Positions 1-17,653 of a stretch of DNA of 64,000 bases are shown in pieces. The number at the start of each line of letters is the position of its first letter. Positions within the stretch are counted from its first letter, which is position 1. This stretch comes from Nitrospirota bacterium (lineage in GTDB: Bacteria > Nitrospirota > Thermodesulfovibrionia > Thermodesulfovibrionales > UBA1546). The notes below the pieces were generated by a model, which was not told where the DNA came from, searched no databases, and worked only from the letters and a program-made list of their open reading frames with translations. The stretch is taken from contig WPIF01000002.1 of assembly GCA_009773185.1 (NCBI GenBank), positions 1 to 64,000 on the forward strand. Reading direction: 5' to 3'. Both the position numbers and the translations under genes were made by a program.

Positions 1-354
1 AATAACCTCCTCATTCCGTCTATCCGAAAAATATGCTTTCACTTCCTGATTGCAAACTCAAAAAATGCGTCCTCCCTCGCTTATCAGGGAATCAAGGAGT
101 GTCCAACCCATTTCTTTAACAGGGCTATGCTTATGCCGTCATTATATTTAACCAATCAAGATATTTGCAATGTCTGTTCAGCGGAAACGATGATTTAGTT
201 CCTTGTGCCATGCCATGAATTTTGAGCAGGGCGGACATTTTTTAGATGTAGCAAAAACATTGGTGAAATTTTGATTTGTATAAAATAGGAATTGCTGGTG
301 CTTTGCTGAAGGTTTTTAGGGGGTATTAATACTTGATTTCATAAAAAAACAGGT
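1..354. other. No gene seen; decayed element DNA at window edge
   Basis: I see no convincing coding frame in these 354 bases. Positions 183-228 resemble positions 1206-1250 (shared words include ATGATTTAGTT and CATGAATT), so the toxin-antitoxin genes between them are flanked by imperfect direct repeats. By its relation to the end of the element at 2661-19508, this DNA is inferred to be the interior of an older related element that continues left of the window. Confidence 0.5.
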
Positions 355-429
355 GAATCATCAAGGGAAAGTGAGCAGAAGGCATCACCTTATCGCGCCC
401 GGCGATCAACCGGAGCTATCCCCTGAATT
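355..429 (-). repeat. Two-stem-loop repeat element, copy 1
   Basis: This is a block of about 75 bases with roughly 92% identity to 16621-16695. Each copy can form an outer stem (TCAAGGG with CCCCTGA) enclosing two hairpins: GTGA/TCAC near 371-389 and a GC-rich one around GCGCCCGG. The first hairpin stem differs between the copies while still able to pair, which suggests selection on RNA or DNA structure. Both copies lie just downstream of a leftward toxin-antitoxin pair. It could be a terminator or processing signal, a structured RNA, or a mobile repeat; I do not recognise a named family. Confidence 0.65.
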
Positions 430-431
430 CT

Positions 432-797
432 TTATACAGCTATCTCTAATGCTATCCGGTCATACTTAGTCACCGGCGCTGTTTTGTGATCTGTTTCCTT
501 CTTCTCAATCAAGCCTATCTGTTCGAGATATTTCACATCATCTGCCACATTCTTAACATCCCTCTTAGCCATCCTTGCAAGCTCATGGATAGATGAAGGC
601 TTCCGGGTCTTGATTGTATGCAGGAGTTCAAGTCTCTTAGGAGTTAATACCTTTCTGAACGCCTCAAAGCTGGTGAAATAAACACCGCTCTCTTTCTTGA
701 CCTTCTCTCCACGCTCAATAGCTTCTCCTGTTTTAACAAAGTCTTCCAGCGCCGTCTTCAAGTCTTTGATTCCGATTTTGATTTTTTTTACTCTCAT
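432..797 (-). CDS. TumA-like antitoxin / HTH regulator
   Basis: This 121-residue protein has a winged-helix DNA-binding region in its second half (about residues 52-110: LTPKRLELLHTI, then SIHELARMAKRD, then VKYLEQIGLIEKK). It matches the COG4190/HVO_A0114-like regulators that accompany the TumE (DUF6516) toxin family. Its start overlaps the stop of the upstream toxin gene by 4 bases, so the two are translationally coupled, with toxin first. The likely role is to neutralise the toxin and repress the operon. The family assignment is from motif memory, and activity is inferred. Confidence 0.7.
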   Translation of the reverse strand: MRVKKIKIGIKDLKTALEDFVKTGEAIERGEKVKKESGVYFTSFEAFRKVLTPKRLELLHTIKTRKPSSIHELARMAKRDVKNVADDVKYLEQIGLIEKKETDHKTAPVTKYDRIALEIAV

Positions 798-1084
798 AAT
801 TCACCTCTCTTGTATCTTTCAATATCTCTGAAAAAATCGTGAGCTAATTTTTTGAGACTGATAAAATGATATGGCTCTATCAGTTCTCTAATATGCCTGT
901 GGTCTCCTTTGCCTTCTGCGTTGTCATAGCCTATTATTCTCTCATTTTCTATAACATAAACAAGGGAATATTTATACCCATGTGGTTTATCTTCTGTAGG
1001 TTCAGGTAATTGCCACATCTTAATCTCAATGGTATTACCAAGTTCATCTATAACCTTATCGAGCCTGATTAGCTGAGCGTCCAT
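794..1084 (-). CDS. TumE-like (DUF6516) toxin
   Basis: This 96-residue protein fits the DUF6516/TumE toxin family: N-terminal beta strands with a polar hairpin, YSLVYVIENERIIGYDNAEGKGDHRH in two pieces around residues 38-66, and a C-terminal helix with FFRDIERYKRGEL. The GYDN...GDHRH segment is characteristic of the group. It is the first gene of a two-gene leftward operon with the TumA-like regulator at 432-797 and has its own sigma-70-like promoter at 1096-1125. Stabilisation of the surrounding element is the usual role; the toxic mechanism cannot be read from the sequence. Confidence 0.65.
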   Translation of the reverse strand: MDAQLIRLDKVIDELGNTIEIKMWQLPEPTEDKPHGYKYSLVYVIENERIIGYDNAEGKGDHRHIRELIEPYHFISLKKLAHDFFRDIERYKRGEL

Positions 1085-1095
1085 ATTCTGTAGGT

Positions 1096-1125
1096 ATTAT
1101 ATGCCAACAATAAAATAGCTGTCAA
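1096..1125 (-). promoter_or_regulatory. Promoter of the tumE/tumA-like operon
   Basis: On the minus strand TTGACA (1120-1125) and TATAAT (1096-1101) are separated by 18 bases, just upstream of the toxin start at 1084. The -35 word and the DNA behind it resemble those of the hicAB promoter at 17641-17646, so homology between the two loci begins at the promoter edge. Confidence 0.65.
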
Positions 1126-1138
1126 GAAGATGCTATAT

Positions 1139-1200
1139 ATATCGGAACGTACATCCTGTTGCACTCAGACTTTAAGCCTTTCGGCTTTTCCTTTAACCTC
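1139..1200 (-). pseudogene. Frameshifted relic of the small phage gene at 17654-17890
   Basis: Read leftward, this segment encodes KGKAERLK and then, one base out of frame, residues matching the C-terminus CNKMYV of the intact protein at 17654-17890. Nucleotide similarity extends upstream into the TTGACA promoter motif. There is no intact frame, so this is a decayed homologue left in the older element. Confidence 0.65.
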
Positions 1201-1332
1201 TTAGTGGGAAACTATGATTTAGTTCTTTTGCTTCCTGTCATGAATTGTGGGATCTAAGCTCATTGAAGATTTTTTATGGAAGGCAGGAGGAAGGGTCTAT
1301 GAGGTTTTTAGAATGGGCGATGACCCCATTAT

Positions 1333-1434
1333 TTGACAGATGAGGCAATCAAGAAGGATAAGCAGTACTCTGGCCGGAACGACTTCATAGAAGACTGTAT
1401 TCTTAGATACTTAGAATCTAAAGGGAAGATTTAA
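1333..1434 (+). pseudogene. Truncated ribbon-helix-helix protein relic
   Basis: The plus-strand frame ends in a helix pair typical of CopG/Arc-like proteins (TDEAIKKDKQYSGRNDF, IEDCILRYLE), followed by SKGKI and stop. The N-terminal beta strand and a normal start are missing; a stop codon lies at 1321 in the same frame, although a TTG at 1333 could begin it. The final 14 codons recur almost exactly at 19362-19407. It is likely the remains of an antitoxin or repressor at the right end of the older element, in the slot occupied by the intact gene at 18728-18892 in the newer one. Confidence 0.55.
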
Positions 1435-2125
1435 TATCAAGGCGCTTTGTATTAGTTGACAAGGGCCCTACGAGCCATACGCTTTGAAATCCAAGAGAAT
1501 GTGTCCAAGCGCCGTATCGCAAAATATATTCCTTCAAAACATCATCAAAGATAAAGACGGGAAGCTTTGTCGCGTCAAGAGCGAGTACAAGATGTTGACG
1601 CTGAGGAGGAGGAATTTCAGATTTTTTCTCAATTGATAATTTTAAATCTGTTAGTAGTTCATTTATAGATACCTCCTGCTCTATCTGTCCTTTCTTTGCG
1701 AGATGCCGCCAGAAATTTTTATCACTCTTTGCCCGAACTACTTGAATATGTAGCTCTTTTTTGTTGTTATCTTTGTCGTATGCTATACAGTCTACGTTAT
1801 CATCTTTTTCAGTATTATCTATTGGATGGCTCCAGTTCTCTCCAGCTTCATTAAGTGCTTGCACAAGGGTTACGCACGTTGGTAAGGTATTAGCTTCTCC
1901 CTGTGGACTGGAACCTTTATGAGAGGAGATCAGTGTATCATCATTATTTCGTCTTGCCCTGGAGGTTTCGTTATTTTTTTCTACGCCATATTCTATTAAT
2001 TCCTTAGTCTGCGTATTACTGAGCTCCATATACAGGCTGTCGCTTTCCGAGTCTCGTTCTCCAAAGACTATATTAGTATTTTGTGACTGTTCTTCGGAGT
2101 CAGAGTCTTTTTTATTTTTGGCCAT
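1418..2125 (-). CDS. Hypothetical protein, possible PD-(D/E)xK-like core
   Basis: I do not recognise this 235-residue protein. Roughly the first 90 residues are rich in Ser, Asn, Glu and Asp and look disordered. The remainder is globular, with a strand pair VDCIAYDKDN...ELHIQVVRA (about residues 110-131) resembling a D...(E/Q)xQ core of the PD-(D/E)xK nuclease fold, followed by a Lys-rich helix and hydrophobic strands (HLVLALD, VWLVGPL). It lies between a ribbon-helix-helix relic and the element end repeat, a usual place for cargo genes. A nuclease function is speculation. Confidence 0.5.
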   Translation of the reverse strand: MAKNKKDSDSEEQSQNTNIVFGERDSESDSLYMELSNTQTKELIEYGVEKNNETSRARRNNDDTLISSHKGSSPQGEANTLPTCVTLVQALNEAGENWSHPIDNTEKDDNVDCIAYDKDNNKKELHIQVVRAKSDKNFWRHLAKKGQIEQEVSINELLTDLKLSIEKKSEIPPPQRQHLVLALDATKLPVFIFDDVLKEYILRYGAWTHSLGFQSVWLVGPLSTNTKRLDIKSSL

Positions 2126-2202
2126 AATTTATTATATTCGTTTTGCAATCGTTATTGCTTTGCCGCTTCCGGTGGGAGCACGCATTTTTTGTTATTACTA
2201 CC

Positions 2203-2275
2203 TATTCACTACCTATTTTTCACCTGTTATTTTAGCCTTAACCCATTGATTCTAAAGCAAAGCTTGGCGGGAGCG
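2203..2275. repeat. Element end repeat plus last 11 bases of tRNA-Sec (copy 1)
   Basis: About 73 bases match 19410-19488, covering the DNA just downstream of the tRNA-Sec gene and the last 11 bases of that gene including CCA. The flank contains tandem AGGTAGT-type words, which also occur at the 3' end of the integrase gene (2724-2745) and could be integrase arm-binding sites. Joined to 2672-2691 it rebuilds a continuous attachment site that is now split by the insertion at 2276-2660. Confidence 0.75.
2265..2275. repeat. Target site duplication, left copy
   Basis: The 11 bases TGGCGGGAGCG are repeated exactly at 2661-2671, flanking the 385-bp insertion. The undisturbed sequence at 19478-19488 has a single copy and continues straight on, as expected if this repeat was generated on insertion. 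Confidence 0.75.
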
Positions 2276-2660
2276 GTAAACTTCGCTACGCTACGCTTAC
2301 CCGATTTTTAATCCTTCCATTATTAAACTTCTCCAAGGCTTCTCTAAATTCATTGGATATTAACCGTTTCTTCATAAATGCTTTGCCTGAACTCGATTTC
2401 AAATACAGTTCAAAGGTTTTGGCATCTTTTTCATCGGCGAACGCAATATATGTTTCCACTGCCCACGGTGCATGTCGTTTGCTGTAACCATTATTGTTCG
2501 GACTATTATGCTGGGATACTCTTGACTTCAAATCGCTTGTGTGGCCGATGTAGATTGCTCCGGCAGTTTTAATGCTTTTCAATATATAAGTATAGTACAT
2601 TGCCTTGTTCTGCCTTTATACAACTCAGCCAAATTAAGCGAAGCCTTTGGCGAAGTTTAA
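2276..2660. mobile_element. 385-bp insertion element carrying a GIY-YIG nuclease gene
   Basis: The segment is bounded by inverted repeats TAAACTTCGC (2277-2286) and GCGAAGTTTA (2650-2659), each one base inside an 11-bp direct repeat of the target. The paralogous site at 19478-19508 shows the empty target. The only gene is the GIY-YIG nuclease; its stop codon lies inside the left inverted repeat, so the gene fills the element. No transposase is present, so either the nuclease drives mobility or the unit is mobilised in trans. The boundaries are seen directly; the mechanism is unknown. Confidence 0.75.
2286..2600 (-). CDS. GIY-YIG nuclease family protein
   Basis: This 104-residue protein is a compact GIY-YIG (UvrC-like, YhbQ/URI type) endonuclease domain. 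The motif appears as YTYILKS...IYIGHTSDLKSRVSQHN near residues 3-32, with the catalytic Arg in LKSRV and the conserved Glu in KTFELYLKSS. It is the only gene of the 385-bp unit with inverted ends at 2276-2660. The C-terminus (RVSVA, stop) is encoded by the left inverted end. A homing or transposition role is suggested by context. Family assignment is firm. Confidence 0.85.
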   Translation of the reverse strand: MYYTYILKSIKTAGAIYIGHTSDLKSRVSQHNSPNNNGYSKRHAPWAVETYIAFADEKDAKTFELYLKSSSGKAFMKKRLISNEFREALEKFNNGRIKNRVSVA

Positions 2661-2691
2661 TGGCGGGAGCGTGTGGGAATCGAACCCACCC
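2661..2691 (-). repeat. attL core: displaced 3' end of tRNA-Sec
   Basis: These 31 bases are identical to 19478-19508, the CCA, 3' acceptor strand and T-arm of the tRNA-Sec gene. They mark the left end of the 16.8-kb element, 13 bases from the integrase stop codon. A displaced tRNA 3' end next to a tyrosine integrase gene is the classic signature of site-specific integration into a tRNA gene. Confidence 0.9.
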
Positions 2692-2704
2692 ACCGAATTG
2701 TTTT

Positions 2705-3967
2705 TTAAGGGGTTTTTACCCCCTCTACTACCCATTCGCTACCTATCCGTTTCACATTGTCCAACTTTCTAAAGGCATCAACCACTTTTAATTTTGCATA
2801 ACGTCTCGTCATTTCAGGCTTGGTATGTCCGAACCATTCCTGCAAAAGCTTCTCGTGTTCAGGATGTGCGTTTATAAACTCGGTGCCAAAACTATGCTTG
2901 GTAAATTCATAAAGAGGCATGTCAAGATTAGTTCCATACTTCTCATTGAATTTCTGTAGAGTGCGCTTGTAGATGTCATTCAAGAAGTCCTGGCTATAGG
3001 ACCTGCCGCTGCCATGTGTGAATACAAACTGTTTTGGAAAGACCCTCGGTAGAACAGCTCTTGTTTCCGGGAACAGGTAGTTATAACGTATTCTTTTGGT
3101 TTTTGTGTGTTCAACAAGCCGTCTGCCTGAAAAGTTTCTTCTGTATGAAACCTGATCGCCCTCAATACAATCTCCCATTAAGGCCCTTACCTCTGACGGC
3201 CTGCACCCTTGATGGATTAGATAAGTAAATATCGGAATGTGTTCCGGCTCGTTTTCAGAAATTAATTGCAGAAACGCTAACCGGACATCCTTGCTTGCTA
3301 TCTGAGGCTCGTATTCCGGCACTTCTATCTTAGGGAACACCGGTATAGTCTGGATAAGGCGCTCCTCATCTCTGAGCCACCTGAAGAAGCTGCAGAGGGC
3401 ATCTAAGATGTTCTTCTGATACTTGGGGGATTTGTTAAGCTGTCTGGCAAAATCCTTACAGGAAAGTATCTCCCGAACATCAATGCCTTTAAAGAAAGAC
3501 TCATAGTAATTGGTTATGTAGGTTCTCAGTTTTGGGACATAGCCTCTTGCTAACTTTCCCCTGTTCATCAGGTCTTCTTTTTCCTGATACCATTTCCAGA
3601 TGAGATGTTTGAAAGCATACTCTATTTTAAGTTTGCTCTTCCACTTTGTTATATCGAGAATCCGTCTATCTTTTTCGTCTTTAAACTGCCTTAAGAGAGT
3701 AAGCGCATCAGCCAGCGTCCGTATTGTCTTGCCGTCAAAGGTTGTCCCCCTTGTGATTCTCTCTCCCTTGTAGAATGGCCTGATTACGTATCTTTGAGGC
3801 GTGGTAAGGTGAGCAGGACAGATAAACCCGCGCCTCTTATCAAACTTGAACGAGCTGAAACAAACAGGACATTTACCCTCTGGTCTGATATTTGTCATGG
3901 AAAACCCCCAGGATATAATCAAGGGATTTTCTGCTATCTCATCAGATAATGTCAAGTTTGTGCTCAC
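2705..3967 (-). CDS. Tyrosine recombinase / phage integrase
   Basis: This 420-residue site-specific recombinase begins at a GTG immediately after the terminase stop, with AAGGAG upstream. An N-terminal Cys cluster (C33, C36, C50) suggests a small zinc or arm-binding domain. A SAM-like core-binding domain spans about residues 125-225, and the catalytic domain follows: Arg in GCRPSEVRAL, a box II reading EFTKHSFGTEF, LQEWFGHT and the Tyr nucleophile in RRYAKL. Box II has Glu and Lys where the family consensus is His-x-x-Arg. Position beside attL shows it integrates the element at tRNA-Sec. Confidence 0.92.
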   Translation of the reverse strand: MSTNLTLSDEIAENPLIISWGFSMTNIRPEGKCPVCFSSFKFDKRRGFICPAHLTTPQRYVIRPFYKGERITRGTTFDGKTIRTLADALTLLRQFKDEKDRRILDITKWKSKLKIEYAFKHLIWKWYQEKEDLMNRGKLARGYVPKLRTYITNYYESFFKGIDVREILSCKDFARQLNKSPKYQKNILDALCSFFRWLRDEERLIQTIPVFPKIEVPEYEPQIASKDVRLAFLQLISENEPEHIPIFTYLIHQGCRPSEVRALMGDCIEGDQVSYRRNFSGRRLVEHTKTKRIRYNYLFPETRAVLPRVFPKQFVFTHGSGRSYSQDFLNDIYKRTLQKFNEKYGTNLDMPLYEFTKHSFGTEFINAHPEHEKLLQEWFGHTKPEMTRRYAKLKVVDAFRKLDNVKRIGSEWVVEGVKTP

Positions 3968-5899
3968 TCAGACTCCTTTTGAAACAATACGCCTGCCTCT
4001 GACGGGCGGAGCGCCGGCCGCTCCTACAATCTTTATCCCTGACGTCAGCCCTACTGCTATATGTTTAAAGTCTGGGTTTAGCAATTTTATCATGGCATAG
4101 TTACCGACTCGTATATCGAGGGCTTCATTTCGTATACCTTTAAATTGTGGCTTAAAGACTATCGAGGGAAAGCCGCCGCGCTTATATTGTGTATCCATTT
4201 TTTCTGCTGTGAGCATTTTGAAATAATCATAACTGTAGCCTTCGTGCCAGTGCATGAACCCGGGACCGGGCTCTGTTATCTCCATCCAACTGAAAAGCGT
4301 TTTCTTGGCTTCATTTGTGCCTATTATCAAGGGCTGGATATATAGTTTACCGGAGTGGGTGTATTTGGGCTGGCGCGAACGATTGAGCGTTATAAGTTGT
4401 TTGCTATCATGAGAACTGCCTTTGCAGTTAAAGACTCCTTTCCTCTTTGCGACAAATTCCCTGACAGGGGTTGATTTGTAGCCTTCATCTATGCCGCAGA
4501 TGGAGATTGAGAGTTTATTGCCTGATTCATGGATGAATTCTTTGCGGAGGTAGGTATCGAGGGATTGCCAGAGTTCAGGATGGTCAGGATCGCCATAGAG
4601 CTGCTGATATTCTATGCCCCATGATTCATAGTCCTTGCCCCAGGCGATAGTCTCAAGGTCAAGCCTATTGCTTTGTACGTCCACAAAACAGGTAAGCACG
4701 CAGCCGGGCATAGGAATCTGCCATTTGGCGTCTTCCGGGCCGTAGATGTGCCTCCGGGCATAAAGCACGTCTTCTTTGATTGTCTTGCCTGTCAGTTCTT
4801 CACTGAAAGGCTCTGCTGCTTCGTTGTTGTACCATTTCTGCAACTTGGCGATGTTGCCCTGCGCCCGAAGCCATCTGGCGGAGATTGTTGAAAGGGATTT
4901 AAACGGCGAGAGCCAGCTTGGGAATTTCACGCCGATTGAGACAGGCCGTTTATTGACTTCTTCTCTGGGCTTCCATCCATTGATGCTGTTTAAATTATTT
5001 TGCGAGCCGAGGATAAGCGCCTGGTCTCTCGCATAATCATTCCACATGCTGCCGCAATGCTCGCATTTATACCTCGCTGTTTTATCGCGCTCGATTATGT
5101 TTGCAACTCTATGCCTTTCTTTGTCGTCTTTGAAGGCTTTGTCTTTGTCAGGCCATGTGATATTCTGAAAGTTCATTTTCTGATCTTGCCGGCAGTCGGG
5201 ACAGACTGCGTGAAAATCATAATGCGCTTCGCAGGTTTTATATTCCTGCATGATGGGGCCGTTTTCGTGTCCCGGAGTTGAGAGGATTATGCCCTTGCCT
5301 GTCTCGCCGTATGTAGTGATGCGATCTTTAGCTTCTTCGATATTAAGCGAGCTTTTGTATTTGTCTATCTCGTCGAGAACGACTGTCTCGTAAGGATCTG
5401 AGGCGAGTGCTGCAGCGGAATTTGACCAGCCGATATTGATGTTGAACCCTGTCCGAAGCGTGATGGAATAGTTTGTTGTGTCGTCAGGATTGTCGGACAG
5501 TTTTTCCGCTAATTTGGGCGAGGCCTTAACAGCGGGGATGAATCGCTGCTTCATGGTCCTTGCTGTTTTGCGTTCTGACTCCATAACGAGCAAAGCGTTG
5601 TGCCTCGATGTGCTCATTTTTTTGTAGACGTAGTTATGGGCTGCTTCTGAGCCGCCGCCCTGAACACATTTGACGAGCACGAATAATTTCTTTGAGAATT
5701 CCATCAGGTCCATGATGCCCTTGAGTGCGGGGTTGTTTTCATTTTTCCATGGGCCGGGCTTGCTGCTTTTGATAACTACCCTGTGTTTTTCCGTATGCTC
5801 GGAGAGTTTCAATTCTTCTTTTTTCTCAAACACCTGACGCTCGGCAGGAAAGAAGCGGAAGGAGTAGAAAAGGCCAGGGGTCAAGGGATTAGTCTGCAT
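3968..5899 (-). CDS. Phage terminase large subunit (GpA family)
   Basis: This is the ATPase/nuclease that cuts and packages DNA, of the lambda gpA type. Visible features are the ATPase N-half (KCVQGGGSEAAHNYV; Walker-B-like VVLDEIDKYK), paired Cys motifs CPDCRQDQ and CEHCGSMW that give the zinc module of this family, and a nuclease half (CFVDVQSNRLDLETIAW, SICGIDEGYKS). The Met at 5899 is chosen because GAGGAG precedes it and it overlaps the small-subunit stop; an upstream in-frame Met at 5917 lacks this. About 643 residues, full length for the family. A relic of a homologous C-terminus lies at 19248-19362. Confidence 0.88.
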   Translation of the reverse strand: MQTNPLTPGLFYSFRFFPAERQVFEKKEELKLSEHTEKHRVVIKSSKPGPWKNENNPALKGIMDLMEFSKKLFVLVKCVQGGGSEAAHNYVYKKMSTSRHNALLVMESERKTARTMKQRFIPAVKASPKLAEKLSDNPDDTTNYSITLRTGFNINIGWSNSAAALASDPYETVVLDEIDKYKSSLNIEEAKDRITTYGETGKGIILSTPGHENGPIMQEYKTCEAHYDFHAVCPDCRQDQKMNFQNITWPDKDKAFKDDKERHRVANIIERDKTARYKCEHCGSMWNDYARDQALILGSQNNLNSINGWKPREEVNKRPVSIGVKFPSWLSPFKSLSTISARWLRAQGNIAKLQKWYNNEAAEPFSEELTGKTIKEDVLYARRHIYGPEDAKWQIPMPGCVLTCFVDVQSNRLDLETIAWGKDYESWGIEYQQLYGDPDHPELWQSLDTYLRKEFIHESGNKLSISICGIDEGYKSTPVREFVAKRKGVFNCKGSSHDSKQLITLNRSRQPKYTHSGKLYIQPLIIGTNEAKKTLFSWMEITEPGPGFMHWHEGYSYDYFKMLTAEKMDTQYKRGGFPSIVFKPQFKGIRNEALDIRVGNYAMIKLLNPDFKHIAVGLTSGIKIVGAAGAPPVRGRRIVSKGV

Positions 5900-6620
5900 T
5901 CTGCTCCTCTTCTTCATTTATCATCGCTGCGGGAACTTCAAAGCGCATGGGCTTTGAATAATAATCAAAGACTTCTTCTATGTGTTTAAGATAAAAATCT
6001 ATCAGCTCGGGGATGTTGTCAGGATTGCCTTTGAGAATCTCCGCAAGCTTCGGTGCGCGGGAGTGGATGAAACCCTGGCCAAGGTTTTCTTTGAGGAATG
6101 CTGCGCGGGCAGCAAGCATCTGCTCGACTTCGGAGCAAAGGACGTAGCGCCCTTCTTTGATTTTTGCCTCGAATTCCATGTCATGAAATTTCTGCTCTGC
6201 AATTTTGGTCTCCCACTTCATTTTTTCTTCTGCGTTGTTTGAGTCTGCCTCTGTGAGCAGGGAGAGGAATTTTTTTGCGTATTTATCGAGGTCTTTTTTT
6301 GTGAATGTGACGGCGTTGTCTATGGTCTTGAAGCCAACGATTGCTTTTTCGTTATAGAGTTTGGATTTTTCGATTTTAAATCCTTGCACCTTGAGGTAGT
6401 CAACAGCATCTGGCACGGTGAACCTGGCTTGTTCAGGGTTTTCCTGCTGCTGTTTTTTGTTCCTGAATTCCCCAAGAGCTGTTTTTGCGGCCTGATAGTC
6501 TTTGAGATTGGCGACTGTGGAGCTTTTGTTGTATGCCTTCATGGTGCGCTTAACTGCGGCGGACAGGACGTTTTCTTCCTGCGCGAGGACTTTGTCTTTT
6601 TTTTGGAATGTGGAGGTCAT
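5889..6620 (-). CDS. Putative terminase small subunit
   Basis: This 243-residue protein lies directly upstream of the terminase large subunit. The N-terminal half is Lys- and Gln-rich and contains a helix-turn-helix-like stretch (DAVDYLKVQGFKIEKSKLYNEK in parts), and the C-terminal half has the helical pattern EVEQMLAARAAFLKENLGQG...PELIDFYLKHIEEVF seen in Nu1-like small subunits. I take the start at 6620 because its ATG overlaps the preceding gene's stop as ATGA, the pattern used throughout this operon. Function rests on position and general resemblance. Confidence 0.6.
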   Translation of the reverse strand: MTSTFQKKDKVLAQEENVLSAAVKRTMKAYNKSSTVANLKDYQAAKTALGEFRNKKQQQENPEQARFTVPDAVDYLKVQGFKIEKSKLYNEKAIVGFKTIDNAVTFTKKDLDKYAKKFLSLLTEADSNNAEEKMKWETKIAEQKFHDMEFEAKIKEGRYVLCSEVEQMLAARAAFLKENLGQGFIHSRAPKLAEILKGNPDNIPELIDFYLKHIEEVFDYYSKPMRFEVPAAMINEEEEQNAD

Positions 6621-7270
6621 TTTCCCATCCATCCCTGCCCGCTTTGAAGTTGTTTTTTCTGATTGTCCCATTCTTTTTGCCATTGTGTTTTAATTTTTGC
6701 GATAACTTTTTGGAGCACGCGGCCCTGTTTAAAGATTGATGCCTCGGTAATTACTTTGATGGCAAGCAAGCCTTCTTTACGTCCTGACCGGCTCTTGGCT
6801 TTGGAACTGCGAATCAAAACTAAGGGGATTCCGCCCTTTGTGGCCCTTGAGATGAAGGCTTTGGGTAGCACTGTTTTATGGCCAAGTTGTATTTGCGATG
6901 TTACACCGCTATATCCTCTGCCCGCTCTGCCTGTTTTAAGTTGCGCATCGGCGGAAATTCTTCCTTTTTTCTTGAGCCGAATTGACCTGCTTCCTGCTAT
7001 CTGACTTGTAGGAAAATAAAGTAGATTGATAGGTTTGCCTCTCACTGTGAGTATTGCGGAAAGGTTGCTTGCCAGTGCGCCTTTGATGTCTATCTTTCTG
7101 TCGAGGTCAGACTTTTTGATATCCCATATTTGCCTTATCTGCTCTGAGGCTTCTGTCCGGCCTGACTTAACGGCGCGATTCAGGGCTGCTGCTGCGGCTC
7201 TTTTAACTTTTTCCGGATCAAGTTTTGCCATTGCTTCTTTGATGCCTTGAACTTTGATGTTGATTATCAT
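6617..7270 (-). CDS. Prophage minor tail protein Z
   Basis: This 217-residue protein matches the prophage minor tail protein Z family: an N-terminal helix AAAAALNRAVKSGRTEASEQIR (in parts, residues 25-47), a basic middle, and LPKAFISRATKGGIPLVLIR-type strands near residue 140-160. Such proteins act in assembly of the tail terminator or neck of siphophage-like tails. It overlaps its neighbours on both sides by ATGA junctions (7267-7270 and 6617-6620), so it belongs to the element's main leftward operon. Confidence 0.75.
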   Translation of the reverse strand: MIINIKVQGIKEAMAKLDPEKVKRAAAAALNRAVKSGRTEASEQIRQIWDIKKSDLDRKIDIKGALASNLSAILTVRGKPINLLYFPTSQIAGSRSIRLKKKGRISADAQLKTGRAGRGYSGVTSQIQLGHKTVLPKAFISRATKGGIPLVLIRSSKAKSRSGRKEGLLAIKVITEASIFKQGRVLQKVIAKIKTQWQKEWDNQKKQLQSGQGWMGK

Positions 7271-7428
7271 CTCGTTGCCTCTGCCATTTTTTCTGGAAGT
7301 TTCAATTGCTTCCCTGCAATCTCTTTGACGCGCTGCTGCAACTCCGCCAGTGAAATTTCAGCCCTGCTGAATTGCCAAAAAAGTTCTTGCAGTTTCATGA
7401 CATCTTCGTCCATGTGTTTTTGTTTCAT
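7267..7428 (-). CDS. Small phage protein, coupled to helicase
   Basis: This 53-residue protein starts MKQKHMDEDVMKLQ and is mainly helical (LQELFWQFSRAEISLAELQQRV). The start at 7428 forms ATGA with the helicase stop, and its own stop forms ATGA with the tail protein start. I do not recognise a family. The double coupling is the main evidence that it is real. Confidence 0.6.
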   Translation of the reverse strand: MKQKHMDEDVMKLQELFWQFSRAEISLAELQQRVKEIAGKQLKLPEKMAEATR

Positions 7429-8684
7429 AGTGACCTTCCCGTTAGGCCTGTCCATTTTTCTGTGAAGGTAAGTTCTATTTTTGCTGTTTCACCGAATGGC
7501 CTGTTTTTTTTAATGGTGCAATCCATATGCCGTTCTTTGCCCTGGCCTTTTACGCGAGTGAGCCAGAGGACTATGTGCGCTGCTGCAGCGAGTTCTCCGG
7601 CGCCTTTGAGGCCGATGATGTTAGATTCTTTCTTGGCTGATTCGTTATCTATCTGCGAGACGGCAAGACATGTGACCTTGAGTTCTTTGACAAGGGCATA
7701 GAGTTTGCCGGCAGCGTCAGCCATGGTTTCATAGAGGGTATTTCGGATCGCAAGGTTCTGAATGTAGTCTATGGCGATGATGTCAACGCCTTCACGGATT
7801 TTGTGTTTTTTGGATTTGAGGCGGATGTCGTCAACGGTGCGGACATCGTCATAGATGATGGGATTCCATTTGGCTATCATTTTCTTAGCCTTCTCGATGC
7901 GGTCTTCATAGCCTGTGATGCGGCCTGTGATGAGCGCTTTGTAGGATATATCTGCAAGGTTTGATATTAAGCCCATCATTTTTTCTTCACGGGAATCTTC
8001 GAGTGAAAAGAGCAGAATTTTTGCGCCAGCGTCCATGGCATCTACCAACAGTTGATTAAGGAATTTGCTTTTGCCTTTGCCTGTGTAGCCGCCGATTATC
8101 CAAAGGTGTTTGGGATAGAATCCGGGAATGGGTTCTTTCAAAAAGGCAGGGGGGGCGATGCAGATTTCTTTCCCATTTAAGGAATCATCCCAGTATTGGT
8201 CGAGGGTCTTGAGAATGTCGTCTGTGTAGGGGCTTGTTTTGCTTTTTGCGGATTGAGCGAGTTCGACAAGTTCGCTTTCAACTTTGCCAAGCCATTCAGG
8301 AATATCTTCAATTCCGTTTTTGGATTGATCTGCCACTGTTTGCGCCCAGGCTCCGGCCCTGCGGAGGAGTGATTTGTCGTGCACAATGCGGGAGTGGAGT
8401 TTGATGCTCGCTGAGCTGATGTGATCGTTGGCGATGTCTATGATGTAATCTTCACCGCCTGCTTGTTGTATATGCCCTTTTTCTTTGAGCCGGTCAATGA
8501 GTGCAATGAAGTCTGTTTTTTCGCCAAGCTGATAGAGGTCGAAGAGAGCGTTGTAAATCAGGCGATGGCTCGTTGTGGAAAAGTCTTCAGGGCAGATGAT
8601 GTCGGAGGCCTGAAGTAGTGTGTCGGGCTCAGCGATGATGGCTCCAAGTATTGCTCTTTCGGCTTCGGTCGCAAAGTGGCTCAT
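7425..8684 (-). CDS. DnaB-like replicative helicase
   Basis: This 419-residue protein is a DnaB-type helicase: N-terminal domain (AERAILGAIIAEPDTL, residues 7-22), linker, and RecA-like C-terminal domain with Walker A GGYTGKGKSKF (about residue 196) and Walker B DIIAIDYIQN. It unwinds DNA at the replication fork of the element. It is coupled by ATGA to the replisome organiser upstream (8681-8684), which probably recruits it. It is somewhat shorter than host DnaB proteins, as is common for phage-encoded forms. Confidence 0.85.
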   Translation of the reverse strand: MSHFATEAERAILGAIIAEPDTLLQASDIICPEDFSTTSHRLIYNALFDLYQLGEKTDFIALIDRLKEKGHIQQAGGEDYIIDIANDHISSASIKLHSRIVHDKSLLRRAGAWAQTVADQSKNGIEDIPEWLGKVESELVELAQSAKSKTSPYTDDILKTLDQYWDDSLNGKEICIAPPAFLKEPIPGFYPKHLWIIGGYTGKGKSKFLNQLLVDAMDAGAKILLFSLEDSREEKMMGLISNLADISYKALITGRITGYEDRIEKAKKMIAKWNPIIYDDVRTVDDIRLKSKKHKIREGVDIIAIDYIQNLAIRNTLYETMADAAGKLYALVKELKVTCLAVSQIDNESAKKESNIIGLKGAGELAAAAHIVLWLTRVKGQGKERHMDCTIKKNRPFGETAKIELTFTEKWTGLTGRSL

Positions 8685-9544
8685 ACCAGCTCCTTGCGGG
8701 GGGTTGCTTTCGGTCTTAATGTCTGCGCCGGGTTGCCGGTGGACGGGTCAAGGATGACATTGTCTTGAGGTTTACTCTCTGGTATCCATGACGATGCGGC
8801 CTCGTATGCGCCGCATTTCATTCCGTCAAGGAACTTTTCAAAGCGCGGGATGTCATATCCGTTTTTTCTGAAAAACAAATCCTCTGTCTCTAAGAAGCGA
8901 ATTACAGTGGTTTTTAGGATGTCTACGGTCATCGCTTTTAACAGGGTTTTAACGGTTTTCCCGTCCCGTCCGCCTTTAAAGGGAGGTTTTATTTTGAACT
9001 TCTTTTGATATTCCTGAAAGTAAAAATCTATAAATTCTTGAACATCAGACTTTTGAGGCTGATGTGTATCTTTTAATTCTTTATTCTTATTCTTATTCTT
9101 ATTCTGTTGCGTTACATTGGTGTTACAGTGCGTTACTGTAACGTTACAGTCTATAAGTCTTTGATTTTCCCTGTATTTTTGTACTCTGTTTTTTGTGTGC
9201 TGCCGAACTTTTTCCATACCTTCAAGGTTTTGATGTTTTTCCCAGTTTGGTATTGCGATATGCCCGTTGTCGAGGATGTCTATCATGCCCAGGCGGTTGA
9301 AGGTCTCTATGGCCAGCTTAACTGTGTTGATGGGACGTTTGAATTTGTGGGAAAGCATTTCCTCAGTGTATGGGATTTCAGGGGTCAGGTATATCAGTCC
9401 CCTATTGTTGACCTTGCCGGCGAGGGTGAGGAGTTTGACCCATAGGATCAGGATGGTGTCCTTCTCTGGCAGGGAATCTATGAAGTCAATCTTGTCGTCT
9501 TCGAAGATGTCGGTTGTGATTTTTATCCACTTAATTTCAGGCAT
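8681..9544 (-). CDS. Phage replisome organiser
   Basis: This 287-residue protein has the N-terminal winged-helix domain of phage replisome organisers (IKWIKITTDIFEDDKI, ILILWVKLLTLAGKVNNRG, LGMIDI, IPNWEKHQN) over residues 3-107. A low-complexity Asn/Lys linker follows (QQNKNKNKNKE), then a C-terminal helical region (about 175-240) that may contact the helicase. It would bind the element's origin and load the DnaB-like helicase encoded next. The origin may lie within this gene, as in other phages of this type, but I see no clear iterons. Confidence 0.8.
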   Translation of the reverse strand: MPEIKWIKITTDIFEDDKIDFIDSLPEKDTILILWVKLLTLAGKVNNRGLIYLTPEIPYTEEMLSHKFKRPINTVKLAIETFNRLGMIDILDNGHIAIPNWEKHQNLEGMEKVRQHTKNRVQKYRENQRLIDCNVTVTHCNTNVTQQNKNKNKNKELKDTHQPQKSDVQEFIDFYFQEYQKKFKIKPPFKGGRDGKTVKTLLKAMTVDILKTTVIRFLETEDLFFRKNGYDIPRFEKFLDGMKCGAYEAASSWIPESKPQDNVILDPSTGNPAQTLRPKATPRKELV

Positions 9545-9556
9545 TTATTGATTCCT

Positions 9557-9967
9557 TCATGCGGCCTCCTTGAATAAATCAATTTTCTTCTGCCAGAGAT
9601 TCACTGTTCCCTGTGTGGTTTTTAAGATGCGCGATATTTCCGATGTCGGAATTTTTAAACTGAGCAATAGGGAGAGAAGGTAAAATTCTCTGACTGAGAT
9701 TTTAGAATCCTGCAAGATGGTCCCTGTCTTTGCTGTGAACCAGAGTTTGCAGTTTTTACATGTGCAGCGTTTGAGCGATAAGAAGTTTTTTAGTGTGATG
9801 TTGTCGGTGATTTTGGTTTTACACTTCGGGCAGCTCGGGTCTGCGGGATGTGCCAGGGAGATGAACCACGAATTGCAATCCGCTTCATTCAGGAAGTCCG
9901 CAGAAAAAGAGTTGAGCGCGCTATTGGGAAAACTTATTATTTTTGCGGTATATTCAAGCTCGTCCAT
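9557..9967 (-). CDS. Zinc-ribbon plus HTH protein
   Basis: This 136-residue protein has two Cys pairs (CPKC about 50 residues in, CKNC about 22 later) forming a zinc ribbon, followed by a helix-turn-helix (ISVREFYLLSLLLSL, PTSEISRILKTTQGTVNLWQKK in parts). The arrangement resembles the N-terminal part of IS1595/IS1-type transposases but there is no catalytic domain, so a regulatory DNA-binding role is likelier. The start at 9967 has GGGGTGG in front; a longer frame from a GTG at 10066 lacks a good ribosome site. Confidence 0.6.
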   Translation of the reverse strand: MDELEYTAKIISFPNSALNSFSADFLNEADCNSWFISLAHPADPSCPKCKTKITDNITLKNFLSLKRCTCKNCKLWFTAKTGTILQDSKISVREFYLLSLLLSLKIPTSEISRILKTTQGTVNLWQKKIDLFKEAA

Positions 9968-10062
9968 AATTCCACCCCGAAAAAAATTCAAATCGTAGCC
10001 GTTTCTTGCAGGCTTCGCTGTCCGTATTGGGTATGCCCTCTGGAAGGACCCGTAAAACTTTT

Positions 10063-10263
10063 TCACTCTTTAATAAGGTTCTCAATCCTCTTCTCCTGCT
10101 CCTGAAGTTCCATTATGAGTGCTTTAACATTTGCCAGTAACTGCTTCCATTTTGTGCGCGAACGCCCCCTCGATTTTTTACCCTGCACCTTTACCATTTG
10201 CCTCAGGTTCGAGTTTCGCGTAATAAGACGAAGGTTCCCTTGCCTTTTCTGGTTAAGCTTCAT
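10063..10263 (-). CDS. Small basic phage protein
   Basis: This 66-residue protein has a very basic N-terminal half (KKSRGRSRTKWK) and an amphipathic C-terminal helix (LANVKALIMELQEQEKRIENLIKE) able to form a coiled coil. It overlaps the tape measure stop by 11 bases. No family is recognised; the overlap and codon pattern suggest it is real. Confidence 0.5.
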   Translation of the reverse strand: MKLNQKRQGNLRLITRNSNLRQMVKVQGKKSRGRSRTKWKQLLANVKALIMELQEQEKRIENLIKE

Positions 10264-12259
10264 TCAGTGCCTCTTTCAGGGCGCTTCGGTTGTATTTAAT
10301 CAACTCTGCCAAGTGCCGATCTATATCCGCTGCCAGTTGCGCTACATTGCCGCTGGCGCCGTTAATCACTATTGTCGGTGAAAGTGTTATGCTTATCTGA
10401 GAGCCATTGTTCTTCTTATCCGCCGGAATGACCTGCTCGCCCTGGTGAAGAATATACGGGCCTGTCCTAGGCACGTAATCCGTGCCCTTATCGTAAATAT
10501 CGTAAACCTTGACGTTGCCGTAATCCTGAAAGTCGTATTTCACTTCCGGGCCATAGTGGTAAACTCCTCCGCCATAATCTTGAAAGGCAGAAGGTTGAGA
10601 TGTAGAAGGTAGGGTTGCAGGTGATGAGCCCGGGAATGGTAACTCAGGCCTATAATTACCTTGTCCTGGCGGTGGCGGTGGATTCTCGGGTTTATCAAAT
10701 CCATATTTAACAGGTATCACCCATGTTTGACCTGTTAGGTTTTGAAGAGTTGATAGTACCGTACTGAGGTTTGTCATTGCCTCCGTGGTATCCGCTTTCA
10801 CGTCTATGGGTTTTTCAAGGTCTTTAAGATTTGCCTGGAGGGTTAGAACCCAGTTGTCAATTTCTCGGATTTTTTCTGCTGCCGTGGAAGCAAGTTTCTG
10901 ATAAGATACAGACTGCCTGTCTATCCCTTCCCGCATACGTTCAAGCTTCCCCGTCAGGTTCTCATATTCTTTTACCAAGCCTGAAAAGTCGAGAGAGAAT
11001 CCGAGAAAATCTTTTTGGTCTTTATACTTTGTTAAGAAGCCTTCCAATTTCGAGAGGGTGTTTGTTATGAAGGTAGGATCTTCGCTTATCCATGCAGAGC
11101 TTATTACACCTTTAAGTGAGTCTCGTTCTCTTTCCATCTGCTCTGCTGGTGCTAATTGGGGCGCATTATAGCCGGCAAGAAATTCTTTGGATTTTGAGAT
11201 ACTATCATCGAGTGAACGGGCCTTATTGTAATATTCCTCTGCCTTTGCAATGGCAGCGTCATAATACTGGGCAACCTTATCCCGCCATGAAGAGAGATAA
11301 TCAATCCGCTGTTTAATTGATTCCTTCTCCTTTTCAACGGCAGACTTCAAAGAGGCTACCCATTTATTGAGCGCGTCCTGCTCTTTGTAGAATTCAATCC
11401 CCTGTTTCAATCCCTCAGATATCCAGCCTTTATCCCCGAACTTTTCGCGTAACTGTGCTGCCTCTCTGTTCAATGAAGCGATCTGTTTATCCAGATCGCT
11501 CAGGGCAGGATTTAGGCCCTCAATTTTAAATTTCCAGTTTTCAGTTGCATCATTGAGCTCTTTTTGCTCTTTCCTGTATTTTTCGCCGGCTTCTGTCATT
11601 TCCTTCCATGACTTTTCGTGCTCCTGAAATAATTTCTCTTGATTTTGCGCTGACGTAAGCCACTTGCCGCTTGCCTGGTCATAGACAACAGCTCCGGCCT
11701 TAACAGCTTCATTAAAGCCTTTCATTCTCTCTTTCGCATCTGCTCCGGCCATGCCGAGCATTGCGAGTTTTTTATTAGTATTTTCGAGCTTACTGTTTAA
11801 AAATTCAGTCTCTTGCGCTATGTCTTTCCATAAATCCTTTATCTTATTGAATCCGGAAAGGTCTCTCCCTGTAAATTTATAAAACAGCTCATCTATTTTC
11901 TCGCCTGCAAGGTAGGCGGCAGCTCCTACGCCTGCAATCAGACCGGCCGTCCCTGCCGCACCGAGAGCTCCGACAGAGACGGACCCGAGTGTCTTGATGC
12001 CAGACATGAGATTCTTCAATCCGCCTGCCGTGTGCGCTATTGTAGAGCCCGTTGAGGCCAAGTCTCCGATTATGGGAAGACTACCCATAGAACCCATAGA
12101 CATTCCGAGTTGTTTAAATGCTTTGCTCAACTCATAGGTCTCAGTGATGGGTGTTTCTTTTTTGAATTTCTGTAATGAACCTGTTACCTTTTGAAATTCA
12201 TTTGCTACGGCCTGGCCTCCGTCAACTGAAAGAAATAATTTGACTTCATTTTCTCTCAT
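10253..12259 (-). CDS. Tail tape measure protein
   Basis: This 668-residue protein has the layout of a tape measure protein. The N-terminus (VKLFLSVDGGQAVANEFQKV) is typical, a Gly/Ala-rich hydrophobic stretch at about residues 75-120 (LGAAGTAGLIAGVGAAAYLAGE in parts) may insert into membrane, long coiled coil covers about 200-500, and a Pro/Gly-rich linker and beta-rich tail follow. It lies one base after the stop of the frameshifted chaperone, the standard order for long-tailed phages. Its length sets tail length; 668 residues implies a short siphophage-type tail of roughly 100 nm by the usual scaling, which is inference. Confidence 0.85.
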   Translation of the reverse strand: MRENEVKLFLSVDGGQAVANEFQKVTGSLQKFKKETPITETYELSKAFKQLGMSMGSMGSLPIIGDLASTGSTIAHTAGGLKNLMSGIKTLGSVSVGALGAAGTAGLIAGVGAAAYLAGEKIDELFYKFTGRDLSGFNKIKDLWKDIAQETEFLNSKLENTNKKLAMLGMAGADAKERMKGFNEAVKAGAVVYDQASGKWLTSAQNQEKLFQEHEKSWKEMTEAGEKYRKEQKELNDATENWKFKIEGLNPALSDLDKQIASLNREAAQLREKFGDKGWISEGLKQGIEFYKEQDALNKWVASLKSAVEKEKESIKQRIDYLSSWRDKVAQYYDAAIAKAEEYYNKARSLDDSISKSKEFLAGYNAPQLAPAEQMERERDSLKGVISSAWISEDPTFITNTLSKLEGFLTKYKDQKDFLGFSLDFSGLVKEYENLTGKLERMREGIDRQSVSYQKLASTAAEKIREIDNWVLTLQANLKDLEKPIDVKADTTEAMTNLSTVLSTLQNLTGQTWVIPVKYGFDKPENPPPPPGQGNYRPELPFPGSSPATLPSTSQPSAFQDYGGGVYHYGPEVKYDFQDYGNVKVYDIYDKGTDYVPRTGPYILHQGEQVIPADKKNNGSQISITLSPTIVINGASGNVAQLAADIDRHLAELIKYNRSALKEALNEA

Positions 12260-12260
12260 A

Positions 12261-12589
12261 TTACCTTCTCACCTCAGTTAATAGCGTGTTTTCAAAAGCT
12301 CTGAGCTTGCTGAAAAACAAACCGTCTATCTTAATATTCATTGCCCTTGCAGCCTCAATAACAACGTCCCATTTGAGGGCGCTGATTCCATGTGTATTGC
12401 TCTGATATTGTGTATCGCATAAGGTAAAACATTTAAATATTTTCCTGTTTCCCAGAATAATCTCAGGTGCTCTTCCTTTGCATTCATCGCAATCAAGCTC
12501 CTTGTTTTTTCGTCGGGCTACCGTTTGGCAGGCATCGCAATATTTCTGCCTTGTGCCGTAAAGCCATCGGGTAGCCTCTATGAGTTTTT
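12261..12589 (-). CDS. gpT-like frameshift extension of the tail chaperone
   Basis: This frame has no ATG, GTG or TTG before its conserved region, and an in-frame stop lies just upstream, so it cannot be translated alone in the usual way. It is entered from the gene at 12578-13003 by a -1 slip at 12584-12590. It adds about 107 residues including four Cys pairs or near pairs (CDAC, CDEC, CFTLC) that could bind zinc. Its stop is one base before the tape measure start. By analogy with lambda gpGT the fusion would be about 247 residues and would link tape measure to tail tube protein. Confidence 0.75.
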
Positions 12590-13003
12590 TATTTGTTCCT
12601 CTGCCTCATCTTCGTTCAGTGTTCGCAGTCTGTTTGCTGTCTCCTTTATGAAATCCCATAACGATTGCTCATTGTTAACCGGCGGGAGGTTTGCAACAAG
12701 AAGTTTATTTTTCCTGTTCGCTTCCAAAGGTCTGTCTTTTGCATATCCGATACCCTCAAAGTCTTCCAGATAGTAATCAGCCATATCCTCAAATAAAGCC
12801 TTACTGTTGACCTCAGCGACCTTAACCATCTGCCGTGAGTCCGGGTCTTTGATGTGCTGGTGCGTTGTGTGCTTTGCCAGCAACTCGTCTGTCTTGTCTG
12901 TATTCGCGGGCCTGATTTTAAGCTTGATGTTTGCTCCTCTGTATGTATGTTCAACCCAAATGCCTTCCTTTTCCTCTCTCAAAATCAAATTGCATGGTTC
13001 CAT
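12578..13003 (-). CDS. Tail assembly chaperone (gpG-like)
   Basis: This 141-residue protein lies two frames upstream of the tape measure, the position of the tail assembly chaperone in siphophages. The sequence has a beta-rich N-terminal half (NLILREEKEGIWVEHTYRGANIKLKIRPA in parts) and an acidic helical C-terminus ending near LRTLNEDEAEEQIKNS. A slippery heptamer A-AAA-AAC lies four codons before its stop and leads into the 12261-12589 frame. Little sequence similarity is expected in this family; the call rests on position and the frameshift site. Confidence 0.72.
   Translation of the reverse strand: MEPCNLILREEKEGIWVEHTYRGANIKLKIRPANTDKTDELLAKHTTHQHIKDPDSRQMVKVAEVNSKALFEDMADYYLEDFEGIGYAKDRPLEANRKNKLLVANLPPVNNEQSLWDFIKETANRLRTLNEDEAEEQIKNS
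12584..12590 (-). promoter_or_regulatory. -1 programmed frameshift slippery site
   Basis: On the minus strand the heptamer AAAAAAC is in the correct phase (A AAA AAC) with respect to the 12578-13003 frame. Slipping back one base places ribosomes exactly in the 107-codon open frame that otherwise lacks a start. The stop of the zero frame follows 3 bases later. Confidence 0.78.
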
Positions 13004-13017
13004 TGTGTCGTCTCCTT

Positions 13018-13251
13018 TTAATTTTGTTGTAGTATTTTTTCTTTGAGTATTTTCACTTCATTAGTGAGAGCAGCCAGTTCCCCCATAAGCTTTTCGAATG
13101 AATCTAACAGCTCCCGTCTCTCCTGTTCCATGGCTCTGAACTTCTCATTGAAAATCTGTTGCTGACTCTCAATCCGGTTAAGCTCTTTCTGCTTTTCTTT
13201 GAGGAGTTCTCCGATTTCGCTTAGACGCTCTTGAATCTTCTCTTTTTCCAT
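13018..13251 (-). CDS. Coiled-coil phage protein
   Basis: This 77-residue protein is almost wholly one charged heptad-repeat helix (IQERLSEIGELLKEKQKELNRIE, then RAMEQERRELLDSFEKLMGELAAL in parts). It lies just upstream of the tail chaperone gene and in the same operon. No family is recognised; a scaffold or tail-assembly role is possible from position. Confidence 0.6.
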   Translation of the reverse strand: MEKEKIQERLSEIGELLKEKQKELNRIESQQQIFNEKFRAMEQERRELLDSFEKLMGELAALTNEVKILKEKILQQN

Positions 13252-13292
13252 TTTTATTTTTTCCTCCTATTTATGAATTGCATAATTACCTG

Positions 13293-13469
13293 TCACAATG
13301 TCTCTCTTCCTCCTGAAAAAAGAGGGCAGGGCGCCTTCATCTTATCGAGAGCGCTGCCTGTTGAAGAGCCGAAGTCTCCGAGTCTCTGCTTTGCAGAATT
13401 TATGGCCTGGCCAGTATTATCTGTTGCGGTAATTTCAAGGCTTAAATTTGAATCGCTAATTTTTGCCAT
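13293..13469 (-). CDS. 58-residue protein resembling a tape-measure N-terminus
   Basis: This short gene begins with ATG after a good ribosome site (AGGAG, 6 bases). Its first 45 residues (SLEITATDNTGQAIN, SAKQRLGDFGSSTGSALDKM) look like the N-terminus of phage tape measure proteins, but the frame then ends at 58 residues. It may be the remains of a second tape measure gene or a small protein using the same docking motif. The full tape measure lies 1 kb further on. Confidence 0.55.
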   Translation of the reverse strand: MAKISDSNLSLEITATDNTGQAINSAKQRLGDFGSSTGSALDKMKAPCPLFSGGRETL

Positions 13470-13478
13470 TGCAATCTC

Positions 13479-13754
13479 CTATAAAAATTCGATTTTACCC
13501 TTACGGGCATCATCCTCTATTGCACCCCTTTTAACAGCCTCTGTAATTTTTACCGTAACATTTAAAATCTCTTTACGGACCGCAGGCGGAAACTTTGATA
13601 TTGAAACAATATCGCCTATAACAATAATCCGCTCTTTGATACCTTTGCTAAGAAAATATTCTTTCGCTTTTTCATTCGGGACAAGATGAACAAATTTCCC
13701 CAGGCTCTTAAGCCGAACTTTAAAACCTAAGTGTGGAATGTCCTGATTATTCAT
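13479..13754 (-). CDS. Small phage protein, unknown
   Basis: This is a 91-residue protein starting MNNQDIPHLGFKVRLKS. The ATG at 13754 is preceded by GGAGG at 6 bases, which decides the start over an upstream TTG. The protein looks beta-rich (FKVRLKSLGKFVHLVP, RIIVIGDIVSIS) with a basic C-terminal helix. No family is recognised. It ends 9 bases before the next start in the operon. Confidence 0.6.
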   Translation of the reverse strand: MNNQDIPHLGFKVRLKSLGKFVHLVPNEKAKEYFLSKGIKERIIVIGDIVSISKFPPAVRKEILNVTVKITEAVKRGAIEDDARKGKIEFL

Positions 13755-13798
13755 ATAGGCCTCCAATATACCGTGGAATCTTCCGTCTGTGTAATTCT

Positions 13799-14356
13799 CT
13801 ATTTAACGCCATATTTTTCTACAAGCTCACCTTGCACTTTCTTAACTTCAGCAATCGACGGTAAAGGAAACAACAGGTGCAGGAAGCTTCCATACATTTC
13901 TACTTCGCCACTAAGGGAGGCGGCCGCGTAAATTTCATAAACCGCTGAGACCATATCGCCAGTAATTTTTTCATTTTTCAATTCTGCTAATACAGCACTC
14001 CAGAATACACGCCTGCAGTTGGTAACCCTTGATGATAAGGCCATTGTCTCTTTTTGAATCTGCCGACTGGCTTTATCCGAGGCGTCCAAGAGTTCTTCGA
14101 TTTCGGCTTTCTCGTTGTTCAACTTTTTAAGACTATCGCGCACTGCCTTAAGATCGGCTTCCGTCAGGTTGCCGGAAGCAAAACCAATAAGGGTTCGTTC
14201 TTTTTCTCTCGCAACCTCACTGATAGCATTCTCCAAATAATTTAATTGTCTATTTGCCGCTTCAATTTTCTCATGCAGAAGCTTCGGCTTCTGGATTACC
14301 GCATCGAGTTCGACTTTGGCAGTCTTATACGCGTCTAACAATTCTTTCAAGTCCAT
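13799..14356 (-). CDS. Coiled-coil phage protein, paralogue A
   Basis: This 185-residue protein has a long coiled coil over residues 5-110 (EKIEAANRQLNYLENAISEVA, LNNEKAEIEELLDASDKA) and a hydrophobic globular C-terminus (FWSAVLAELKNEK...FLHLLFPLPSIAEVKKV). Its layout closely parallels the next gene at 14546-15136: coiled coil, a GNLTEADL/ISAGELEAA-type break, then a W-V(F)-x-x-L segment. The two look like a diverged tandem duplication. Function unknown. Confidence 0.6.
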   Translation of the reverse strand: MDLKELLDAYKTAKVELDAVIQKPKLLHEKIEAANRQLNYLENAISEVAREKERTLIGFASGNLTEADLKAVRDSLKKLNNEKAEIEELLDASDKASRQIQKETMALSSRVTNCRRVFWSAVLAELKNEKITGDMVSAVYEIYAAASLSGEVEMYGSFLHLLFPLPSIAEVKKVQGELVEKYGVK

Positions 14357-14362
14357 TTTTTC

Positions 14363-14467: not shown

Positions 14468-14545
14468 TCTTCATGTATTCCCGGAGCAAAGGAATACTTG
14501 CAGGTTAACTTTTTTGTGTTTACATGCAACTCATACCTAACTCTT

Positions 14546-15136: not shown

Positions 15137-15162
15137 TTTCCCTTTCTCCTTTTTTCTTTTTT

Positions 15163-15673: not shown

Positions 15674-15730
15674 AAAATACTTCGTGCAGCTTATGGAGAT
15701 ATTAAATCAGAAGGGACAGGTGTCTTCAAT

Positions 15731-17646: not shown

Positions 17647-17653
17647 GAATATT

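Follow-up and report, generated by a model that had tools for sequence, protein, structure and literature searches.

The window analysed here, a 64,000-nucleotide stretch from a Nitrospirota bacterium, contains at positions 2276–2660 a 385-bp unit that is probably a minimal mobile element aimed at tRNA 3′ ends, in which a GIY-YIG nuclease, the only protein encoded, would act as the mover. Comparing occupied with empty sites, and the unit with its relatives, at the sequence level shows the insertion, the target duplication, the choice of tRNA ends, the recurrence of the unit, its conserved ends and its conserved nuclease. The features on which the analysis relies are as follows.

1207–2264, minus strand: flank belonging to a small island; in the related genome G490, its counterpart (84% identity over 1113 bp) adjoins tRNA-SeC, and no unit lies between.
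2265–2275, no strand assigned: distal copy of the target-site duplication, TGGCGGGAGCG; exact 11-bp repeat, single copy in the empty sites (19478 and G490).
2276–2660, minus strand: mobile unit, 385 bp, delimited by comparison of occupied and empty sites; single copy in the genome.
2276–2300, minus strand: distal hairpin, the terminal palindrome GTAAGCG..GTTTAC; same palindrome in the G300, L005 and G368 units.
2277–2286, plus strand: terminal inverted repeat at the gene 3′ end, 100% complementary to 2650–2659.
2286–2600, minus strand: GIY-YIG nuclease gene, 104 aa (PF01541, E=3e-15; invariant Y, R and E columns; model pLDDT 90.5).
2634–2660, minus strand: tRNA-proximal palindrome, TTAAACTTCGCCAAAGGCTTCGCTTAA, immediately 3′ of the tRNA CCA; same TTCGC hairpin in 17 of 18 loci of the clade.
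2650–2659, plus strand: terminal inverted repeat at the tRNA-proximal end, perfect 10-bp partner of 2277–2286.
2661–2671, no strand assigned: tRNA-side copy of the target-site duplication, exact repeat, within the 31-bp tRNA-SeC tail.
2661–2691, minus strand: 31-bp copy of the tRNA-SeC 3′ end, which is the prophage attachment sequence and the target of the unit (31/31 identity to 19478–19508).
2705–3967, minus strand: integrase of the prophage adjoining the unit, outside the unit (PF00589 weak; PHROG integrase, E=1e-22).
19478–19575, minus strand: intact tRNA-SeC gene (ARAGORN), whose 3′ end is the internal empty site.

The original prediction described a segment with inverted ends and 11-bp direct repeats. 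Both are present, and their combined repeat length of 21 exceeds the maximum of 18 found in 2000 first-order random sequences as well as the 14 of the next-best 611-bp stretch of the window. The site at 19478–19508 had been read as the paralogous empty target, and the alignment bears this out: when the left and right flanks of the unit are joined, they align gap-free to the site around 19478, and as far as the end of the 31-bp tRNA tail 3 positions differ. A second empty site comes from the same genus: in the genome G490, tRNA-SeC is followed directly by sequence matching window positions 2275 to 1207 (84% over 1113 bp), without the unit. Two independent empty sites thus show that the unit was inserted where a tRNA end meets a small island. 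Window positions 1–2265 are part of that island; its homologue in G490 measures about 2.1 kb and is bounded by copies of the tRNA-SeC 3′ end. On the other side, positions 2692–19477 correspond to a small prophage that occupies tRNA-SeC and has genes for an integrase, a gpA-like terminase, a DnaB-like helicase and a tape-measure protein; its attachment repeat is 31 bp long. The tail copy at 2661–2691 was left by this prophage, whose integrase is encoded at 2705–3967. The target had been predicted to be a tRNA-derived att core; it does consist of the last 31 nt of tRNA-SeC, copied by the prophage, but what the unit actually targets is the 3′ end of the tRNA and not the phage att core. A 'tRNA-Phe' called by ARAGORN at 2665–2753 was rejected, this being the tRNA-SeC tail fused to prophage DNA, which Rfam scores as a weak tRNA-Sec below threshold. 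In a genome of the same family (G104, locus L254), the CCA of tRNA-SeC runs into the 14 bases with which the tRNA-side end of the window unit begins, TTAAACTTCGCCAA, and there is no nuclease gene; this is probably the remnant of another insertion of a unit.

Possession of terminal inverted repeats and a target-site duplication places the unit with TIR transposons and insertion sequences. As predicted, its sole conserved ORF is the GIY-YIG nuclease, and no known transposase (DDE, HUH, serine or tyrosine) was found in it. The prophage integrase lies outside the duplicated boundary, which sets the unit apart from a tRNA-integrating island with its own integrase. The stop codon of the nuclease gene (2286–2288) had been placed inside an inverted end; the overlap exists, but only one base is shared with the 10-bp repeat. 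The protein is intact, conserved and single-domain, and both the domain and the conserved Y, R and E residues assign it to the GIY-YIG superfamily. Its model has a UPF0213/Slx1-like fold, with At-HIGLE, Slx1 and the UPF0213 protein BH0048 (1ZG2) as best matches, all with modest E-values; 1ZG2 is also its only sequence relative in the PDB (E=5e-4). Proteins of the UPF0213/YhbQ or Slx1 type are not known to belong to mobile elements. The gene is under purifying selection, with pN of 0.13–0.26 against pS of 0.72–0.82 at saturated synonymous sites, and the ends of the unit also persist. Hairpin ends and tRNA-like targets would be plausible substrates for a structure-selective nuclease. Strong folding is not predicted for the window copy of the tRNA-proximal palindrome by itself, and the folding energies of single hairpin ends are mostly no better than those of shuffled sequences.

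The closest relatives of the unit are found at tRNA-SeC (L005, with 71% protein identity, and G368/L062), at tRNA-Ser (L006), and as a damaged copy in G300. In this last genome, of the same genus (L042/L077), a nucleotidyltransferase-like gene replaces the 5′ half of a unit at tRNA-SeC, and the right end and the duplication are kept. The end motifs CTTCGC... / ...GAAGTTTA and the palindromes are conserved among these close relatives despite saturated synonymous sites. The duplicated target is CGCTCCCGCCA at SeC in the window and in G300, CACTCCCGCCA at the variant SeC of L005, CCCTCTCCGCCA at Ser in L006 and CCTAGCTCCGCAGC at Gln in the more distant unit L007, so that the recurrence of ends and duplicated target proposed as a check is found in L005, L006 and G300 and in the related L007. 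As the duplication equals the local tRNA tail at each copy, it was made at insertion; a repeat carried by the unit would not vary with the target. At SeC and Ser, the duplicated stretch comprises the acceptor 3′ strand plus NCCA. The G368 copy has the ends and no downstream duplication, and this counts against our preferred explanation. Flanks differ at every copy, and no longer conserved operon spans the position. Presence is patchy, in 22 of 396 genomes of the phylum, and orthologous tRNA-SeC sites in one family are occupied in 1 of about 22.

These comparisons bear on two other readings, either of which would be possible for the window unit taken alone. According to the first, the nuclease is a homing enzyme that cuts unit-free tRNA 3′ ends, homologous repair then copies the unit from a donor allele, and the inverted ends and repeats are incidental. 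The fixed orientation and the frequent location at a tRNA end would agree with it, as would the GIY-YIG fold, which is that of homing nucleases; the gene of the free-standing GIY-YIG homing endonuclease SegB of T-even phages likewise stands alone next to tRNA genes, and SegB has been linked to the breakage of sequence that contains tRNA genes (PMC13096335). Gene conversion, however, yields neither terminal inverted repeats nor a new duplication matching each target, whereas here each tRNA has its own and the empty sites are single-copy; nor does it account for unrelated flanks or for the dozens of short gene-less copies in a sister group described below. Unlike the SegB-type genes, moreover, the unit is chromosomal and not phage-borne, has terminal inverted hairpin ends and a duplication copied from each new site, and its best fold match is Slx1-like rather than I-TevI-like. 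Searches of phages, plasmids and IMG/VR yielded no related copies, so a phage-borne homing gene is unlikely. A search for intron families in the unit and 10 related loci returned only tRNA and tmRNA, which gives no sign of an intron or intein, a context that free-standing homing genes do not require. As gene conversion without a new target duplication is not what the window family displays, we regard homing as unlikely.

According to the second reading, a tyrosine recombinase acting in trans, for example the integrase of the adjoining prophage, integrated a small circular form of the unit at a tRNA att site, the 11-bp repeat being the att core. The tRNA-SeC end is indeed an attachment site for the prophage and for islands, orientation is fixed, and an att core would also produce direct repeats. 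Against this, copies at the ends of SeC, Ser, Gln, Ala and tmRNA genes have one end structure in common, and the repeat is identical to the local tail throughout its length. Inverted hairpin ends are no feature of integrases, and an att site would not be expected at start codons, where the Patescibacteria copies are located. We hold this reading to be improbable.

The link to tRNA genes extends to the wider family. Protein similarity was the sole criterion for collecting 105 distinct related ORFs; 53 of them lie no more than 300 bp from a tRNA or tmRNA gene encoded on the same strand. Counted in 250-bp bins, these genes number 44 just upstream and 13 just downstream of the ORF, against 0–6 elsewhere; on the opposite strand, the same two bins contain 3 and 0. 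In 12 of 41 loci, an exact repeat of the last 11 nt of the tRNA is present downstream of the ORF, compared with 0.2% for other tRNA tails; of the 12 loci with the intact tRNA on the downstream side, 10 have a repeat of its first 18 nt upstream of the ORF. Many tRNA-linked relatives have no downstream duplication, which again speaks against the explanation that we favour. The clade of the window unit (support 100/95; 20 rows) includes Nitrospirota, Patescibacteria, Pseudomonadota and Bacteroidota. The TTCGC hairpin stands immediately after the tRNA CCA in its loci as listed above, against 2 of 25 other tRNA-linked loci. Stem pairs of the hairpin co-vary across loci (14 double changes versus 3.9 when shuffled, in a small, hand-trimmed set), which with such input is supportive and not proof. 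Among the related units, those of L010, L063 and L247 are located at the 3′ end of tmRNA genes.

Broken tRNA copies with hairpins inserted in the D, anticodon or T loops were also observed beside GIY-YIG genes (L003, L044, L047, L050, L052, L069, L072, L081 and L082). That of L003 lies in the genome of the window itself (C4:72331-72561), and in L081 the nuclease gene ends within the anticodon loop of tRNA-Asn. Such broken copies around relatives, together with the same-strand tRNA linkage, would suit a tRNA-linked host or toxin gene, acting for example on tRNA precursors, with the repeats as scars of tRNA duplication. The sporadic presence at orthologous tRNA-SeC sites of one family, the clean empty sites (19478 and G490) and the location of the sister group at start codons make this hardly credible.

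The sister group, mostly from Patescibacteria, comprises 23 units of 277–351 bp with the same nuclease family and inverted ends of 12–20 bp; most copies examined are located at start codons. At ftsH, occupied in L012/L120, comparison with 29 related genomes without the unit gives a 5-bp duplication, ATGGA/ATGAA. Three of these empty sites (L135, L139 and L145) have TCTAACGG(G) directly before the start codon, possibly the footprint of an excised unit or a natural target sequence. Four genomes hold 33 gene-less copies of 48–78 bp with sister-group ends, against 0 in a reversed-pattern control. In the 0.7-Mb genome G402 there are 91 copies of the ends versus 5 in the control, and the 39 neighbouring convergent end pairs comprise 37 of 48–121 bp and two of 276 bp; these two, both GIY-YIG units, are the only coding elements with such ends. 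The terminal bases are complementary in 40 of 40 gene-less copies. An exact 4-bp duplication flanks 22 of the 40, compared with 7% in a cross-pair control, 3 have a 5-bp repeat instead, and 15 have neither as an exact repeat; these last two figures count against our preferred explanation. Families of palindromic elements of 48–121 bp with ends CCCGTTAGA/TCTAACGGG occur in Patescibacteria (L012–L027 and G399–G402, with L180–L210 and L226–L245); these ends are shared only with GIY-YIG units and often lie at start codons of leaderless-looking genes.

G402 and the gene-less copies are the strongest evidence that a GIY-YIG gene is the autonomous partner of a family of inverted-repeat elements; given this sister group, the nuclease is the foremost candidate mover. 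A transposase located elsewhere in the cell could instead move the unit as a MITE-like passenger that carries a nuclease by chance, in keeping with the missing classical transposase and with the short gene-less relatives. This is very improbable, as in the 0.7-Mb genome with 91 ends no other neighbouring end pair encloses a coding element, and the factor common to several phyla is this one nuclease family. Movement in trans, which had been suggested as the other option, is possible for the window unit, but the sister group favours the nuclease.

MITEs and small insertion sequences resemble the unit in terminal inverted repeats, target duplication and short non-autonomous copies; the unit differs in having no DDE, HUH, serine or tyrosine recombinase. 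Nor is it itself a MITE sharing its ends with a transposase-coding partner, as there are no other copies of these ends in its genome. In Penelope-like retroelements, a GIY-YIG endonuclease serves insertion with target duplication; the 385-bp unit, unlike them, has no reverse transcriptase. REP/RAYT systems also combine one small nuclease gene between palindromic ends with dispersed gene-less palindromes, here those of the sister group (PMC2817692). RAYT, however, is a Y1/HUH tyrosine enzyme, and the protein of the unit is a GIY-YIG nuclease, with target duplications and tRNA or start-codon sites. Open-access papers on GIY-YIG with mobile elements, tRNA insertion, REP sequences or Patescibacteria, and on CPR MITEs, yielded no description of such an element, and the passages found in a survey of the GIY-YIG superfamily mention neither inverted repeats nor tRNA insertion (PMC1564403).

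The proposed nuclease-driven element consists of a small GIY-YIG nuclease of the Slx1/UPF0213 type and a pair of inverted ends that form hairpins; it is inserted just 3′ of the CCA of a tRNA (a tmRNA in relatives) and reads in the direction of the tRNA. In the mechanism that we propose, the nuclease would recognise the unit by its hairpin ends and the target by its tRNA-like 3′ end, and would make staggered nicks about 11 nt apart, one after CCA and the other near the junction of T stem and acceptor stem. The gap would be joined by the unit, and repair would duplicate the acceptor 3′ strand and NCCA, so that the tRNA would stay whole. We infer the recognition of structure and the nick positions, and likewise that cutting and joining would be done by the nuclease itself, perhaps with host repair. 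Characterised GIY-YIG homing enzymes leave 2-nt 3′ overhangs, as against the 11-nt stagger needed here. Orientation is always that of the tRNA, which symmetric ends do not predict and which weighs against the proposal; it perhaps reflects expression from the tRNA promoter. Two further points are unfavourable or left unaccounted for: the window unit is single-copy, and a search of its own genome for gene-less or further copies of its ends returned none; and the duplication is 11 nt in the window branch versus 4–5 nt in the sister group.

The known roles of GIY-YIG enzymes are in homing, repair and restriction; moving inverted-repeat elements is not among them. The suggestion of a new class of minimal mobile element gains support from the recurrence of the unit and from the large tRNA-targeting family, and we incline, with some reserve, to the view that these units represent a widespread and hitherto undescribed class of bacterial transposable elements in which a GIY-YIG nuclease, as sole protein, acts as transposase on hairpin ends, one branch settling at tRNA and tmRNA 3′ ends and the other at start codons, with numerous gene-less copies of 48–121 bp. 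If a single-domain nuclease of about 100 residues does mobilise DNA to tRNA ends or start codons, these would rank with the smallest autonomous mobile elements so far known, and the nuclease would be a very small candidate enzyme for site-directed insertion. Such elements would also explain why broken tRNA copies recur and why short palindromes occur near tRNAs.
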